In this document: one piece after another, positions 14,033 to 19,682 of the stretch
Layout: each line of letters begins with the position of its first letter
Position numbering within the stretch: position 1 is the stretch's first letter
Assembly (NCBI GenBank): GCA_021201315.1
Contig: JAJQFG010000096.1
Coordinates: 1-50,364 of the forward strand
Origin: Erysipelotrichaceae bacterium
GTDB taxonomy: Bacteria > Bacillota_I > Bacilli_A > Erysipelotrichales > Coprobacillaceae
Direction: 5' to 3'
DNA: 50,364 bases
Notes under the pieces: generated by a model
The model's database searches: none
The model's input: only the letters and a program-made list of their open reading frames with translations
What the model was told of the DNA's origin: nothing
Position numbers and translations under genes: made by a program

Positions 14033-14103
14033 GCCCATGTAGTATAATGGCAATACAGCTGAATGGTAATCAGCAGCAGCAAGTCCGATTCTTGCCTTGG
14101 GCA
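14033..14103 (+). tRNA. tRNA-Thr(GGT), unusual
   Basis: The cloverleaf reads: acceptor GCCCATG with CTTGGGC (one T-T mismatch at the sixth pair), D arm GTAT/ATAC with loop AATGGCA, anticodon arm GCTGA/TCAGC with loop ATGGTAA (U33, anticodon GGT, reads ACC threonine codons), a 4-nt variable region AGCA, T arm GCAAG/CTTGC with loop TCCGATT, discriminator A. CCA is not encoded. The T loop lacks the near-universal T at position 55 (TTC becomes TCC). Together with the acceptor mismatch this makes it atypical: either a divergent functional tRNA or a specialised or decaying one. Confidence 0.75.
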
Positions 14104-14108
14104 TTAGT

Positions 14109-14137
14109 AGGATAAAGACATTATTTGTCTTTATCCT
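14109..14137. terminator. Hairpin between the tRNA and kdpE
   Basis: AGGATAAAGACA (14109-14120) and TGTCTTTATCCT (14126-14137) form a perfect 12-bp stem with a 5-nt loop. It overlaps the kdpE stop. T-runs are weak on both strands, so it may act as an mRNA 3-prime stabiliser or modest terminator. Confidence 0.5.
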
Positions 14138-14834
14138 CCACTTTTAACATACGATAACCAATACCAACATGAGTTTGAATATATTTATTAGATGCATTTT
14201 TTTCAATTTTCTTACGTAACGTTGTCATAAATACTCTTAATGTAGCTACTTCATTATCATAACCAACACCCCATATTTCATGAATAATATAGGTATGTGT
14301 TAATACTTTACCAACATTTTTTGCAAGCAAACATACCAGTTTATATTCTATAGGTGTTAAATGTAATTCTTCATCATTAAGATAAACACAACCTAAATTA
14401 TAATCTATCTTTAAATCTCCATTGATAAATATTGAACTTTCTTTATCTGATAAACCTCGAATATAATTAAGTCTTCTTAAAGTTACTCTTAAACGCGCTA
14501 ATAATTCCTCTACAGAAAAAGGTTTTGTCAGATAATCATCTGCACCTGCATCTAATGCTTCTATCTTATCACTATCTTCACTTCTTGCGCTAATGACAAT
14601 AATAGGCATATTGGACCATGATCTTATTTTTTTAATAATATCTACACCATCCATATCTGGTAAACCCAAATCCAATAAAATAATATCAGGATTATGCGAT
14701 GAAGCTTCTAATAAAGCACTTGCACCATTTTGAGCTATTAGATATTTATAATCATGCGTAGATAATGTTGTAGATATTAAATTTCTAACTGCTCTATCAT
14801 CTTCTATAATAAGTATTGTTGGTTTATTCTTCAT
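14121..14834 (-). CDS. kdpE: Response regulator KdpE
   Basis: This is an OmpR/PhoB-family transcription factor. The receiver domain (1-120) has the acidic pair E11-D12-D13, the phosphoacceptor Asp55 in DIILLDLGLPDMDG, and the Lys in YLTKPF. The C-terminal winged helix (about 140-230) includes ELHLTPIEYKLVCLLAKNVGKVLTH and the recognition-helix part VATLRVFMTTLRKKI. The 237-aa length is normal. It overlaps kdpD by 11 nt, so it is translationally coupled. No kdpFABC genes are nearby; the divergent ktrBA operon is the likely target through the inverted repeat at 17407-17448. Confidence 0.93.
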   Translation of the reverse strand: MKNKPTILIIEDDRAVRNLISTTLSTHDYKYLIAQNGASALLEASSHNPDIILLDLGLPDMDGVDIIKKIRSWSNMPIIVISARSEDSDKIEALDAGADDYLTKPFSVEELLARLRVTLRRLNYIRGLSDKESSIFINGDLKIDYNLGCVYLNDEELHLTPIEYKLVCLLAKNVGKVLTHTYIIHEIWGVGYDNEVATLRVFMTTLRKKIEKNASNKYIQTHVGIGYRMLKVEDKDK

Positions 14835-17331
14835 ATAATGTAACCTCCTTTATAGGTAGTGTAAATCTAAATATTGATCCATGAGGGACATTATCTAAAA
14901 CAGTAATCGTTCCATGATGAGAATCAATAATAGACTTACATAATGCTAACCCTAATCCTAAACTACGATGACTATCAGCTACTTTTTGATTACCAGTATA
15001 AAACATATCAAAAATATGAGATTTATGTTCATCAGGGATACCTGCTCCATTGTCCATCACATCAACGATGACATATTGATCTTGTGGTGTAACCTTAACT
15101 TCAATAATAGAATCTTTGGGTGTATATTTAATCGCATTATCTAATAAATTAAAAATAACTTGAATAATCAATCTCGCATCTGCTTCTACTAATATAATAT
15201 CATCTAATGGTTCATAAACAATATGATGTTCAAATGTTTTTCTTTGAGTATGATCAATAGCTTCTTGAATTAATTCATCAATAACTTCAGTATTCAAGTT
15301 TAATTTCATCGTACCATTTTCTATTCTCGATACCGATAATAAATTTTCAACCAAACCATTTAGCCACAAAGCATCATTATACATATCTGTATATAATTGC
15401 TTCTTTTGTGATTCATCTAAGTTTTCTTCTTGTGTCAACAACATACCTGCATTACCTGATATAGAAGTAAGAGGTGTTCTTAAATCATGGGATATAGATC
15501 TTAATAGGTTCGCATGAGATTGTTCATTTTGAGCACGTAAGTCAGCTTTGGCTTTTTCTTTATTGGCATAATCGATTTCAAAAGCTAAACCTGCTTCTCC
15601 TAATAATGATAATAATATACTATAATCAAATGAATCTAATGGTTCTTTCAATAATCTAATACCAACAATACCATAAATCTTATTATTACTAGAAATAGGT
15701 AAATATAAGCACTTGGCATTATCAAATGTTTCAGTGGTTGCTCCAGCTTGCTTATGATTACGATAAACCCATTGCACTACTTTTATTTCGTCATCATTTA
15801 TAAAATCACACGAATGATTTTCTAACATACATGTAATAGGTTTCTCTATTTTATCATTGATAATTGGATAAAGAATAATATCCTTTTTTAATAATCTTGA
15901 CAATTGATGATTTATAACATGAATAATCCCTTCGATATTATTTTCCTGTTGGAGCAATTGATTCGTTTCTAACATAATTTTCGTACGATAAGCCGTTTGT
16001 GCTGAATTCTTCGCATTTTGATTCACTCTAACAGTTAATGTACTAGTAATATAGGCTGCTATAAACATAATGATAAATGTCATTGGATAACCTGAGCCAT
16101 AGGCTGCTAAAGAAAATCGTGGTGTTGTAAAAAAGAAATTAAATACAAAGACACTTGCGATAGAAATCACTAAACTATATATTCTCGCAGATGTTAACAT
16201 TGCGGTTAATAATACACCTAATAGATAAACCGTAATAATATTAGCTTCACTAAAACCTAAATAATGAAATAAATAACCAATAAGTGTCACTTCTACTAAA
16301 ATAAGGATACTTTTAATTGTATCTGATATAGTGATACTTTGTGATTCATGTTTTACAGGTTTACTTTTAAAAGTACTATAGCCATGTACTGGAATAATAT
16401 AAATATCTAGGTCAGGTGTCAGTTGAATCAATTGTTCGACAAGATTTGTTTTAAATGGTGACCACATTTTATCTTGTCTACTATGGCCTAATACAATTTT
16501 CGTAATATGAAATTTATTCGCAAATTCTGATATTTGATAAGCAATATCATCACCTTTGACAGTTTCAATATGAGCTGTAAATTCTCTGGCAAGATCCATA
16601 TTATCTTTTAGCATTTGTCTTGCTTCCTCTGATAAAGATTGACTCGTTTCCACATACAATGCTGTTAAATGTGCATTAAGCGCTTGAGCCATATAAGCAG
16701 CACTTCTAATAACCTTGGAATTGGTAGGAGATGCACTCAAACATACTAATATATGTTCATCTGTTAATATGGGATTATAATTTTGTTTCATTTCTAAACG
16801 ATTCATGCATCGTTTCATCGCTAATTGTCTTAATTGATTAAGCTGATCCAAACGATACATATTCATCATATCATGAGGAGATTTATCAATGAACTCTACT
16901 TCATCAGCTTGATCAAAAAGATAATCTGGTATACGTTTAACAGGCTTTTCTAATATTTCTTCAATAATATCATTCAATCCCTCAATATTTTCCACCAACA
17001 AACATGTATAAACATTTATACCAGCATCTAATAATTCTAAAATATCCTGATATCTTTTCTTATGCCTAGAAGTAATCGAATTATCCCCAATCATATCCTC
17101 TATGACTATTAAATCTGGATTCATCTTTAAAACCTCATCCAAATCAAAAGTATGAGAATCATTAATATAATCCAATGATTCATTAAAATCATTGGATAAT
17201 TCCCCTATCTTAACATCAAACCCTTGTAGTTTCATATCATAGGCTGATTTGAGCATGGTTAGAGTCATATCTTTATGATAGGTATAGCTAAAAAATATCT
17301 TTAATTGTCCTTTCATTAAACGTTGTGCCAT
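14824..17331 (-). CDS. kdpD: Sensor histidine kinase KdpD, P-loop degenerate
   Basis: This membrane sensor for potassium or osmotic state pairs with KdpE. In order: a KdpD N-terminal domain (about 8-215), a USP domain (about 190-320), four DUF4118 membrane helices (about 340-435), a GAF-like region (about 450-590), HisKA with phosphoacceptor His615 in ISHDLRTP, and HATPase with N732 (DNAIKYTPK), DNGAGIP and GLGLAL. The usual Walker A of the N-terminal domain (GxxxGxGKT) is replaced by SYTYHKDMTLTML at about 15-27. The rest, including SRHKKRYQDILELLDAGINVYT, is kept. Residues 197-226 (CLSASPTN ... LTALY) resemble the c-di-AMP-binding signature described for KdpD USP domains. The start follows GAGGGGATGAGAGT. 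Confidence 0.93.
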   Translation of the reverse strand: MAQRLMKGQLKIFFSYTYHKDMTLTMLKSAYDMKLQGFDVKIGELSNDFNESLDYINDSHTFDLDEVLKMNPDLIVIEDMIGDNSITSRHKKRYQDILELLDAGINVYTCLLVENIEGLNDIIEEILEKPVKRIPDYLFDQADEVEFIDKSPHDMMNMYRLDQLNQLRQLAMKRCMNRLEMKQNYNPILTDEHILVCLSASPTNSKVIRSAAYMAQALNAHLTALYVETSQSLSEEARQMLKDNMDLAREFTAHIETVKGDDIAYQISEFANKFHITKIVLGHSRQDKMWSPFKTNLVEQLIQLTPDLDIYIIPVHGYSTFKSKPVKHESQSITISDTIKSILILVEVTLIGYLFHYLGFSEANIITVYLLGVLLTAMLTSARIYSLVISIASVFVFNFFFTTPRFSLAAYGSGYPMTFIIMFIAAYITSTLTVRVNQNAKNSAQTAYRTKIMLETNQLLQQENNIEGIIHVINHQLSRLLKKDIILYPIINDKIEKPITCMLENHSCDFINDDEIKVVQWVYRNHKQAGATTETFDNAKCLYLPISSNNKIYGIVGIRLLKEPLDSFDYSILLSLLGEAGLAFEIDYANKEKAKADLRAQNEQSHANLLRSISHDLRTPLTSISGNAGMLLTQEENLDESQKKQLYTDMYNDALWLNGLVENLLSVSRIENGTMKLNLNTEVIDELIQEAIDHTQRKTFEHHIVYEPLDDIILVEADARLIIQVIFNLLDNAIKYTPKDSIIEVKVTPQDQYVIVDVMDNGAGIPDEHKSHIFDMFYTGNQKVADSHRSLGLGLALCKSIIDSHHGTITVLDNVPHGSIFRFTLPIKEVTLYEE

Positions 17332-17406
17332 ACTCTCATCCCCTCTACTTGATATATTATTATACTATGAATTTGATTAATATCATATAAATAAAAATCT
17401 TCTGAC

Positions 17407-17448
17407 ATTAAGAAAACATTAAGATTTTTTTCTTAATGTTTTCTTAAT
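17407..17448. promoter_or_regulatory. Divergent KdpE-type operator (large inverted repeat)
   Basis: Two perfect 18-bp arms, ATTAAGAAAACATTAAGA (17407-17424) and TCTTAATGTTTTCTTAAT (17431-17448), flank six T. Each arm holds two TTAAG (or CTTAA) units 11 bp apart, the tandem spacing bound by OmpR/PhoB-family dimers. It lies between a minus-strand TATAAT for kdpD (17359-17364) and a plus-strand TATGAT for the ktr operon (17492-17497). Neither has a good -35, which fits activator-dependent promoters. KdpE is the obvious candidate binder; this is inference. Confidence 0.65.
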
Positions 17449-17522
17449 ATCTTTACCTATTTCACTAATAAATTCTTTATAACTTCACTGTTATGATGAA
17501 ATTAGATAAGGGGGATGAGAAT

Positions 17523-17636
17523 ATGGAAGATATTGCTATGACTTGTGTATTTATTCTAACACTCATTATAGGTGATGTTATTATGAAAATGACTGATGAA
17601 TATCTTAATAATAATAGAGAGGATGATGATCAATGA
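17523..17636 (+). CDS. 37-aa single-helix membrane peptide ahead of ktrB
   Basis: ATG at 17523 follows AAGGGGGATGAGAAT, a leader almost identical to that of divergent kdpD. The peptide opens MEDIAMTCVFILTLIIGDVI, one hydrophobic helix, and ends in the polar acidic tail NNNREDDDQ. Its stop overlaps the ktrB start as ATGA, so the two are translationally coupled. Position and topology recall KdpF, the tiny subunit that stabilises the Kdp potassium pump, but here it would accompany a Ktr channel. No sequence similarity to a known family was recognised. Confidence 0.65.
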   Translation: MEDIAMTCVFILTLIIGDVIMKMTDEYLNNNREDDDQ

Positions 17637-19009
17637 ATGTGGTTGAAGTTAATAAGCATCAAAAAAAGAAACAATATTCTACAGTTAGAAGAATAGCTTT
17701 TAGTTTTTTAGCTGTTATATTTGTAGGTTCCATCTTATTATCATTATCTATTTCTAATAAAAATGATAGTGTCTCATATATTGATCATTTATTTATTGCT
17801 GTGAGTGCAACATGTGTAACAGGTTTGGTGCCTTTTTGTGTGGTAAAACAATACAGTATTATAGGTCAGATTATTGTACTGATACTTATACAAATTGGTG
17901 GTTTAGGGTTTTTAACTTTAATGAATTTAACATTAGTTTTATTAAAAAGAAAACTAACATATGAAAGTAAAATGCTTATGCAAGAAGCGTTGAATCAAAA
18001 TAGTGTTTCCAATATTGCTGGTTATATGAAACAGGTAATTCAATATACACTATTTTTCGAATTGACAGGTGCTGTTTTGTTATCTATTCAATTTATTGGT
18101 GAATTTGGTTTTGGAAAAGGAATTTATTATGGATTGTTTCATAGTATATCAGCTTTTTGTAATGCAGGATTTGATTTATTAGGTAGTAGTTCTTTGATCA
18201 ACTATCAAAATAATATTTTAGTAAATGTAGTAGTTATGGGACTAATTATTGCAGGTGGTTTAGGCTTTGTAGTATGGGTAGATTTAACAGATTGTTTTAG
18301 AAAACATAAGAAAAAGCTTTATAAGTATTTATCACTTCATAGTAAGATTGTTTTGATTATGACAGGAAGCTTGTTATTCATTGGTACTGTTGGTTTCTTT
18401 TTATTAGAATATGATAATCCTAATACAATAGGAAATATGTCAATAGGTAATAAATTATTAACAAGTTTATTTCAATCAACGACACTTAGAACCGCTGGTT
18501 TTTGCACAGTAGATATGTATTCTTTATATAATCCTACAAAATTATTATGTAGTATGCTGATGTTTGTAGGTGGTTCTCCAGCAGGTACAGCAGGTGGTAT
18601 GAAAACCACAACACTCATGATTATGATTTTATATATTCGTACATTATTATTAGGGCATAATCATTTGACGATTATGGATAGAACAATATCAGATCAATTA
18701 GCAAAGAGATCATTAACAATAGCCCTTATTAGTTTCTTTATTTCTTTGACTGGTTTATTTCTGATATCGATAAGTGAATCAGGAGAATTTATAAATTTAA
18801 TGTTTGAAGTTTATTCAGCCTTTGGAACGGTTGGTTTAAGTGCTAATGTTACTAGTAGTCTAACAATTTTTGGTAAAATTATTATTATGATACTGATGTA
18901 TACAGGTCGTATTGGTCCTTTAACAATGTTATTAGTATTTACGCAACGTTATCATCAAAATAAAAGAAAGGAAATGACGTATCCTAACGGAGAAGTCTTA
19001 TTAGGTTAA
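17633..19009 (+). CDS. ktrB: Ktr/Trk potassium transporter membrane subunit
   Basis: This is the potassium-translocating channel-like subunit of a KtrAB/TrkH-type system in the cytoplasmic membrane. It has four repeated M1-P-M2 units. The P-loop selectivity segments are SATCVTGL (about 58-65), AFCNAGFDLL, TTLRTAGFCT and AFGTVGLSAN, each with the conserved glycine. The 458-aa length suits KtrB. The start overlaps the preceding 37-aa peptide (ATGA); ktrA follows 4 nt later, so all three form one operon. Control by KdpDE is likely given the shared intergenic operator. Confidence 0.95.
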   Translation: MNVVEVNKHQKKKQYSTVRRIAFSFLAVIFVGSILLSLSISNKNDSVSYIDHLFIAVSATCVTGLVPFCVVKQYSIIGQIIVLILIQIGGLGFLTLMNLTLVLLKRKLTYESKMLMQEALNQNSVSNIAGYMKQVIQYTLFFELTGAVLLSIQFIGEFGFGKGIYYGLFHSISAFCNAGFDLLGSSSLINYQNNILVNVVVMGLIIAGGLGFVVWVDLTDCFRKHKKKLYKYLSLHSKIVLIMTGSLLFIGTVGFFLLEYDNPNTIGNMSIGNKLLTSLFQSTTLRTAGFCTVDMYSLYNPTKLLCSMLMFVGGSPAGTAGGMKTTTLMIMILYIRTLLLGHNHLTIMDRTISDQLAKRSLTIALISFFISLTGLFLISISESGEFINLMFEVYSAFGTVGLSANVTSSLTIFGKIIIMILMYTGRIGPLTMLLVFTQRYHQNKRKEMTYPNGEVLLG

Positions 19010-19013
19010 AGAT

Positions 19014-19682
19014 ATGAAGAAGAAACAGTTTGTGGTATTAGGTTTGGGTGTGTTTGGTGAAACCATAGTAAAAACATTATCAGATTATGGTCATACAGTG
19101 ATTGCGATTGATAATAATGTAGAACATGTGGAAAGTGTTGCTGAATATGCGACCAGAGCTATTATTGGTGATGTTACTAATGAAGAGTTTTTAAGAGAAT
19201 GTGGCATTGAAGAGTTTGATGTGGGGATTGTCGCCATTGGAAATCATTTGGAAGAAAGTTTATTAGCCGTTATTAATCTTAAAGAGATAGGTATACCATA
19301 TATTATTGCCAAAGCTAAAAATGAACGTTTTCAAAGTATATTAGAAAATTTAGGAGCAACGCGTGTCATTCGACCTGAAAAGGAAATGGGCGTAAGAATA
19401 GCGAGACAGTTATTACGAAAGAATATCGCTGATTTAATAGAAATAGATGATAATAACTGTATTGTAGAAATGAGTGTGCCTGTTTCTTGGGTTGGTCATA
19501 AGATTATCAATTTAAATTTAAGACATAAATATAATATTAATTTACTAGGTAGAAGAAATATGGAAACCAATGCTTTAGAATTAGGAATTGATCCTCAATA
19601 TGTTATTAAACCTAATGATCGTTTTTTGATGGTAGCAGAAACGAAGAAAATAGAAGATTTAGACTTTTCCTTAAGAGTCTAA
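19014..19682 (+). CDS. ktrA: Ktr potassium system regulatory subunit (RCK)
   Basis: This cytosolic RCK protein assembles as an octameric ring on KtrB and gates it. The RCK_N Rossmann domain (1-125) has VLGLGVFGETIVKTL, the nucleotide-binding GxGxxG, with Asp33-type acidic end VIAIDNN. The RCK_C domain (about 135-222) is the site that binds c-di-AMP in several Gram-positive KtrA proteins. The 222-aa length is normal. It is the last gene of the ktr operon; no clear hairpin terminator follows before the MATE promoter at 19773. Confidence 0.95.
   Translation: MKKKQFVVLGLGVFGETIVKTLSDYGHTVIAIDNNVEHVESVAEYATRAIIGDVTNEEFLRECGIEEFDVGIVAIGNHLEESLLAVINLKEIGIPYIIAKAKNERFQSILENLGATRVIRPEKEMGVRIARQLLRKNIADLIEIDDNNCIVEMSVPVSWVGHKIINLNLRHKYNINLLGRRNMETNALELGIDPQYVIKPNDRFLMVAETKKIEDLDFSLRV

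Follow-up and report, generated by a model that had tools for sequence, protein, structure and literature searches.

Head-to-head predicted KdpE boxes between divergent kdpDE and ktrBA genes of an Erysipelotrichaceae bacterium

Introduction

Between the divergent operons kdpD-kdpE (17331 to 14121, minus strand) and tiny ORF-ktrB-ktrA (17523-19682, plus strand) of an Erysipelotrichaceae bacterium lies a long perfect inverted repeat. The locus raises the question of whether this repeat is a protein-binding site or an RNA structure and, if the former, which regulator uses it and which genes it serves. The window analyzed here is a stretch of 50,364 nucleotides (contig JAJQFG010000096.1), for which a first-pass annotation had proposed a back-to-back KdpE site activating both operons together.

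Results

The repeat occupies 17407-17448, exactly where the first-pass annotation had placed a 36-bp perfect inverted repeat, with 18/18 bp complementary between the arms and a 6-nt T6 loop (Table 1). With extension it reaches 21 bp at 95% (17404-17424/17431-17451). No other perfect inverted repeat of the window with a loop of 12 nt or less is as long, the runner-up having 13 bp, and a perfect inverted repeat of 18 bp was also reached by 1/30 dinucleotide shuffles. Each arm contains two TTAAG units 11 bp apart, as the annotation had described, and these are the sole TTAAG-N6-TTAAG matches in the window.

Table 1. Features of the divergent region and its two operons (positions of the window).
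Feature	Position	Strand	Remarks
Perfect inverted repeat	arms 17407-17424 + 17431-17448	.	loop TTTTTT
Predicted KdpE box A, kdpDE promoter	17407..17426	+	ATTAAGAAAACATTAAGATT; 21.7 bits, best match in window
Predicted KdpE box A, ktr promoter	17429..17448	-	ATTAAGAAAACATTAAGAAA on minus strand; 19.4 bits, second-best match
Weaker predicted KdpE box B, kdpDE promoter	17376..17395	+	14.3 bits, third-best match in window
Weaker predicted KdpE box B, ktr promoter	17461..17480	+	coding strand TTCACTAATAAATTCTTTAT; 10.5 bits
-10 TATAAT, kdpDE promoter	17359..17364	-	starts 42 nt after box A
-10 TATGAT, ktr promoter	17492..17497	+	starts 43 nt after box A
37-aa hydrophobic ORF	17523..17636	+	stop overlaps ktrB start (ATGA)
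ktrB	17633..19009	+	TrkH/KtrB family
ktrA	19014..19682	+	TrkA-N/TrkA-C regulatory subunit
kdpD	14824..17331	-	835 aa; KdpD domain (broken Walker A/B), Usp, DUF4118, HisKA, HATPase
kdpE	14121..14834	-	237 aa; OmpR/PhoB-type regulator

The plus-strand operon encodes KtrAB, with a TrkH-family KtrB and an adjoining TrkA-N KtrA. The small ORF that precedes them is kept at 37-40 aa in three congeners, the ATGA overlap being lost in one of them (G002). It shows few second-position changes and has no Pfam match, and its product is possibly a KdpF-like small partner of KtrB.

Concerning the minus-strand operon, KdpE contains the receiver and Trans_reg_C domains of a KdpE regulator. Its residues 6-230 align with the E. 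coli KdpE structure 4KNY (E-value = 1.6e-57), and it retains residues equivalent to R193, R200 and T215 of the E. coli protein (alignment read by eye). The NCBIfam KdpE equivalog NF007820 is its top model with 220 bits, under the cut-off of 325; the protein, whose nearest family is KdpE, is predicted to work like KdpE while standing outside this strict model. A tRNA-Thr (GGT) is located at 14033-14103 on the plus strand, just beyond the 3′ end of kdpE.

KdpD bears all the parts of a KdpD histidine kinase, namely the KdpD domain, Usp, DUF4118, HisKA with its histidine and HATPase. The N-terminal domain of KdpD is a serine kinase for KdpB, which makes KdpD a tandem serine/histidine kinase (PMC11018627). 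The signature of this serine kinase (ASK), a Walker A of G-X5-GK[ST] together with a Walker B of DE, is absent from the window protein. Walker A is of the SYTYHKD type (SYTYHKDMT) instead of G-X5-GKT in 4/4 species of the genus, and Walker B has ED for DE in the three species with a readable stretch. The sequence CLSASPTN of the Usp domain fits (A/G/C)XSXSX2N, which is part of the c-di-AMP-binding motif of the KdpD Usp domain (PMC8214093), and the histidine-kinase motif is also retained. KdpA was found neither in the window genome nor in three congeners and is present in 13/60 relatives, and KdpC was not found in the window genome. Decay of the serine-kinase domain is expected in a genome without KdpB.

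In order to characterize the arms independently, a KdpE motif was learned from 35 upstream regions of kdpA or kdpD at kdpFABC loci, the window genus being left out. In an unbiased count of the 5-mer pairs between genes of 35 related loci outside the window genus, TTAAT/TTAAT and AAGAT/AAGAT at 11 bp were among the very commonest. A tied-half Gibbs search had its optimum at period 11 (589.8 bits vs 394-449 for periods 9, 10 and 12-15), with ATWAAGATT as the half-site and its 11-bp tandem as the full motif; an untied 22-bp Gibbs search, which settled on kdpC coding sequence and ribosome-binding sites, was dropped. Scanning of the window with this motif ranked the two arms first and second and the kdpDE box B third, and a shuffled 50-kb window should yield about 0.01-0.02 matches of arm strength. 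Inside genes of the same genome the matches reach 23.6 bits, and the motif score alone is therefore insufficient.

The first-pass annotation had also suggested a genome search for TTAAG-N6-TTAAG. The arms do match this pattern, but it is not diagnostic, being no commoner in the genome than its reversed control (33 vs 30), and it was rejected as a genome-wide finder of KdpE targets. For ATWAAG-N5-ATWAAG, the whole genome has 21 matches vs 15 for the control, 16 of the 21 within ORFs of at least 100 aa and 5 between such ORFs. The top scores among these five belong to the two arms, and the next one, with 19.1 bits, overlaps an apparent ribosome-binding site.

Both arms thus consist of tandem half-sites with the 11-bp period of the learned motif. 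In box A of the kdpDE promoter the two half-sites lie 11 bp apart and the T-rich strand is the kdpD coding strand, in box A of the ktr promoter it is the ktr coding strand, and in each case the coding strand of the window box has the sequence TTAATG-N5-TTAATG/A. A gap of 2 bp separates the two A boxes. At both promoters the orientation and the distance to the -10 are those seen at other kdp promoters, in agreement with the earlier view that the arms face the divergent promoters. The -10 is located 41-43 nt past box A in 30/42 promoters of other genera, at 42 or 43 nt in all 7 measured promoters of the window genus, and at 41-43 nt in 25/28 ktrB promoters of a 200-genome Lachnospiraceae survey unused in motif building. 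A weaker second dyad, box B, stands between box A and the -10. Box B of the kdpDE promoter overlaps the -35 region at the conserved offset of 11 after box A, and that of the ktr promoter is the best of 49 offsets, at offset 12. In most promoters, the two of the window among them, box B is the top scorer of the 49 offsets, and it comes first at a fixed offset in 22/28 survey promoters. The annotation had already noted that neither promoter has a good -35, and the position of box B over the -35 region explains this: the kdpD promoter combines a perfect -10 with a poor -35-like hexamer, and the ktr promoter has no consensus match.

The association of kdpDE with ktrBA is found in many related loci, either in the order ktrB-ktrA-kdpD-kdpE or divergently (Blautia L022, L040). 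The box precedes 22/22 KtrB genes adjoining kdpDE with at least 12 bits, four of them from the window genus, and 0/33 KtrB genes not adjoining kdpDE (best 10.7 bits). The 200-genome survey, made later on the family to which L025 belongs (Lachnospiraceae), yielded 51 KdpD loci in 49/200 genomes, 32 of them with adjacent KtrA or KtrAB, and a box of at least 13 bits on the expected strand was present in 28/28 loci with readable upstream sequence. In 25/28 KtrAB-linked KdpD whose locus contains no kdp genes, the serine-kinase part is missing or degenerate, and it is intact in 4/4 of those with such genes, while in the first set, where motifs were read by eye, the Walker motifs are intact in 21/27 kdp-linked vs 2/16 ktr-only KdpD (Fisher p = 8e-5), all these counts and the test taking related species as independent. 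Four kdp-linked KdpD of the survey have a main chain that likewise lacks this domain, and in two of these cases a second KdpD stretch adjoins. Of three genomes checked, two with a ktr-linked truncated KdpD are without KdpA and one with an intact KdpD has KdpA.

Discussion

We consider it very likely that the repeat forms the central part of a KdpE operator acting in both directions, which would turn on kdpDE and the ktr operon together. The proposal of back-to-back KdpE sites, one per operon, has gained from the independent motif, the -10 spacing, the conservation in congeners and an analogue in Blautia, and keeps the rank of a prediction. The motif, its spacing and conservation, the gene context, the absence of KdpA and the loss of the KdpD Walker motifs were computed; from them we infer that KdpE binds here, that its binding depends on phosphorylation, that it activates and does not repress, and that the signal is potassium or c-di-AMP. 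According to this proposal, two strong box A sites would stand head to head, each serving the promoter on its own side. KdpD would phosphorylate KdpE, whose dimers would fill box A and then box B, and KdpE on the boxes would recruit RNA polymerase at both promoters. Both kdpDE, by autoregulation, and the small ORF-ktrB-ktrA operon would then be on together.

A palindrome of this kind could also act as an RNA hairpin or a bidirectional terminator, and the repeat folds as RNA at -21.9 kcal/mol vs a shuffled mean of -4.3. We regard this as highly improbable, given that the repeat sits between divergent genes and precedes both predicted -10s. A terminator-like site was looked for and not found, the G+C-rich stem with a T tract downstream of a gene that defines an intrinsic terminator being absent from this divergent arrangement, and Rfam gave no match beyond tRNA-Thr. 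When five sequences of the genus are aligned, the 18 Watson-Crick positions fall to 14 in two of them, yet the arms keep 17.7-21.7 bits as KdpE boxes in all five, and both arms have 17.7-18.9 bits in the two sequences with 14/18 pairs. For instance, the change of CTTAATG to CTTTATG breaks the stem pairing and retains the KdpE half-site. Because congeners lose the pairing yet keep the boxes, the palindrome is, as judged from this alignment, a by-product of two independent head-to-head boxes and not a hairpin. A riboswitch was likewise rejected, owing to the eroded pairing and the lack of an Rfam match other than the tRNA.

If KdpE does occupy the site, it might repress one or both promoters from the two arms, or the promoters might compete for it. 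The 2 bp between the A boxes make joint occupancy uncertain, and the overlap of box B with the -35 region fits repression. However, single kdpA, kdpD and ktrB promoters have the same distance from box A to the -10, as expected of activation, kdpFABC is activated by KdpE in E. coli (PMC3264566), and the head-to-head KdpE box pairs of Blautia and Marinilactibacillus have other spacings, so that we find repression or competition unlikely. Another OmpR/PhoB-type regulator of the genome is a very unlikely user of the site in place of KdpE. Tandem half-sites at 11 bp are general in the OmpR/PhoB family, and in related genomes boxes of similar sequence accompany regulators that adjoin short DUF4118 kinases, so that another OmpR-type regulator could share the site, but the box tracks kdpDE across Firmicutes, occurring before kdpA, kdpD or a kdpDE-adjoining ktrB and being absent at other ktrB genes.

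The bidirectional KdpE operator that we favor resembles the kdpFABC operator of E. coli, where the KdpE half-sites TTTATA-N5-TTTACA lie at -72 to -50 (PMC3264566). Both have direct half-sites 11 bp apart with the T-rich strand as the coding strand, an OmpR/PhoB-type KdpE, and a position upstream of the start that equals the distance predicted in the window. In contrast to E. coli, the window targets are ktrBA and kdpDE, the operators are head to head and an extra box B lies over each -35, and the half-site, which on the T-rich strand is TTWATG/A in Firmicutes, differs from that of E. coli. The two-component system shares the KdpD, Usp, DUF4118 and histidine kinase domains and the adjacent kdpE with the KdpDE described earlier (PMC11018627), from which it differs in the degenerate Walker A/B of KdpD and in a genome without KdpA and KdpC. 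The transporter has the TrkH/KtrB membrane subunit and TrkA-type KtrA of known KtrAB systems, whereas its predicted KdpE control and the conserved ORF of 37-40 aa before ktrB set it apart. Blautia schinkii (L022) and Blautia sp. (L040) also carry head-to-head boxes between divergent ktrB and kdpD, although B. schinkii also possesses KdpA and a KdpD whose Walker A is intact. The Blautia KtrB belongs to another clade, and thus the same arrangement arose separately.

In the KtrB tree the window genus falls inside its own family's clade of unlinked, box-free KtrB (starred, 100/99), apart from KdpDE-linked KtrB, and in the KdpE tree the shortest paths from it lead to family members linked to kdpFABC. 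KdpDE appears to have moved from KdpFABC to KtrAB in this genus, and the simplest reading of the trees is that the genus brought the KtrAB it already had under KdpE control, independently of Lachnospiraceae and their relatives. Across Firmicutes, such a move has probably taken place more than once, marked by boxes at ktrB and by loss of the KdpD serine kinase after loss of KdpB, and the resulting potassium-control module would be common and so far undescribed in gut bacteria. Our searches of open-access papers turned up nothing on the control of ktr genes by KdpE, and an earlier account elsewhere is possible. The Firmicutes KdpE operator as defined here, with two boxes and a fixed -10 distance, can be used for locating KdpE targets, and it leads to the prediction that the classical potassium sensor governs KtrAB, not KdpFABC, in many gut bacteria. 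Additionally, it was recently claimed that the KdpD serine kinase exists to switch off KdpB, and the matching loss of this domain puts that idea to a natural test.

Several other loci deserve mention. In the relatives G032 and G035 (L205 1432-1489, L206 6327-6385), ktrB-ktrA-kdpD-kdpE follows a group of several KdpE boxes, with a head-to-head pair among them, and its KdpD has no serine-kinase domain. A short DUF4118 kinase with its regulator adjoins another KtrAB in L207, L208, L209, L219 and L215, with a KdpE-like box 426-456 bp upstream of ktrB in the first four loci and at a distance of only 54 bp in L215. The motif may thus also be used by a second two-component system for potassium. The KdpD of congener G003 (L019 3501-5993 / L088) is in pieces in different frames with a stop, owing to an assembly error or a decaying gene. 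Finally, Walker motifs are altered or missing in the kdpFABC-linked KdpD of L013, L029, L041, L015, L092 and L095. A separate short KdpD with an intact Walker A is located nearby in L015 and in the L092 region (L224), which suggests a split of the two kinase functions.
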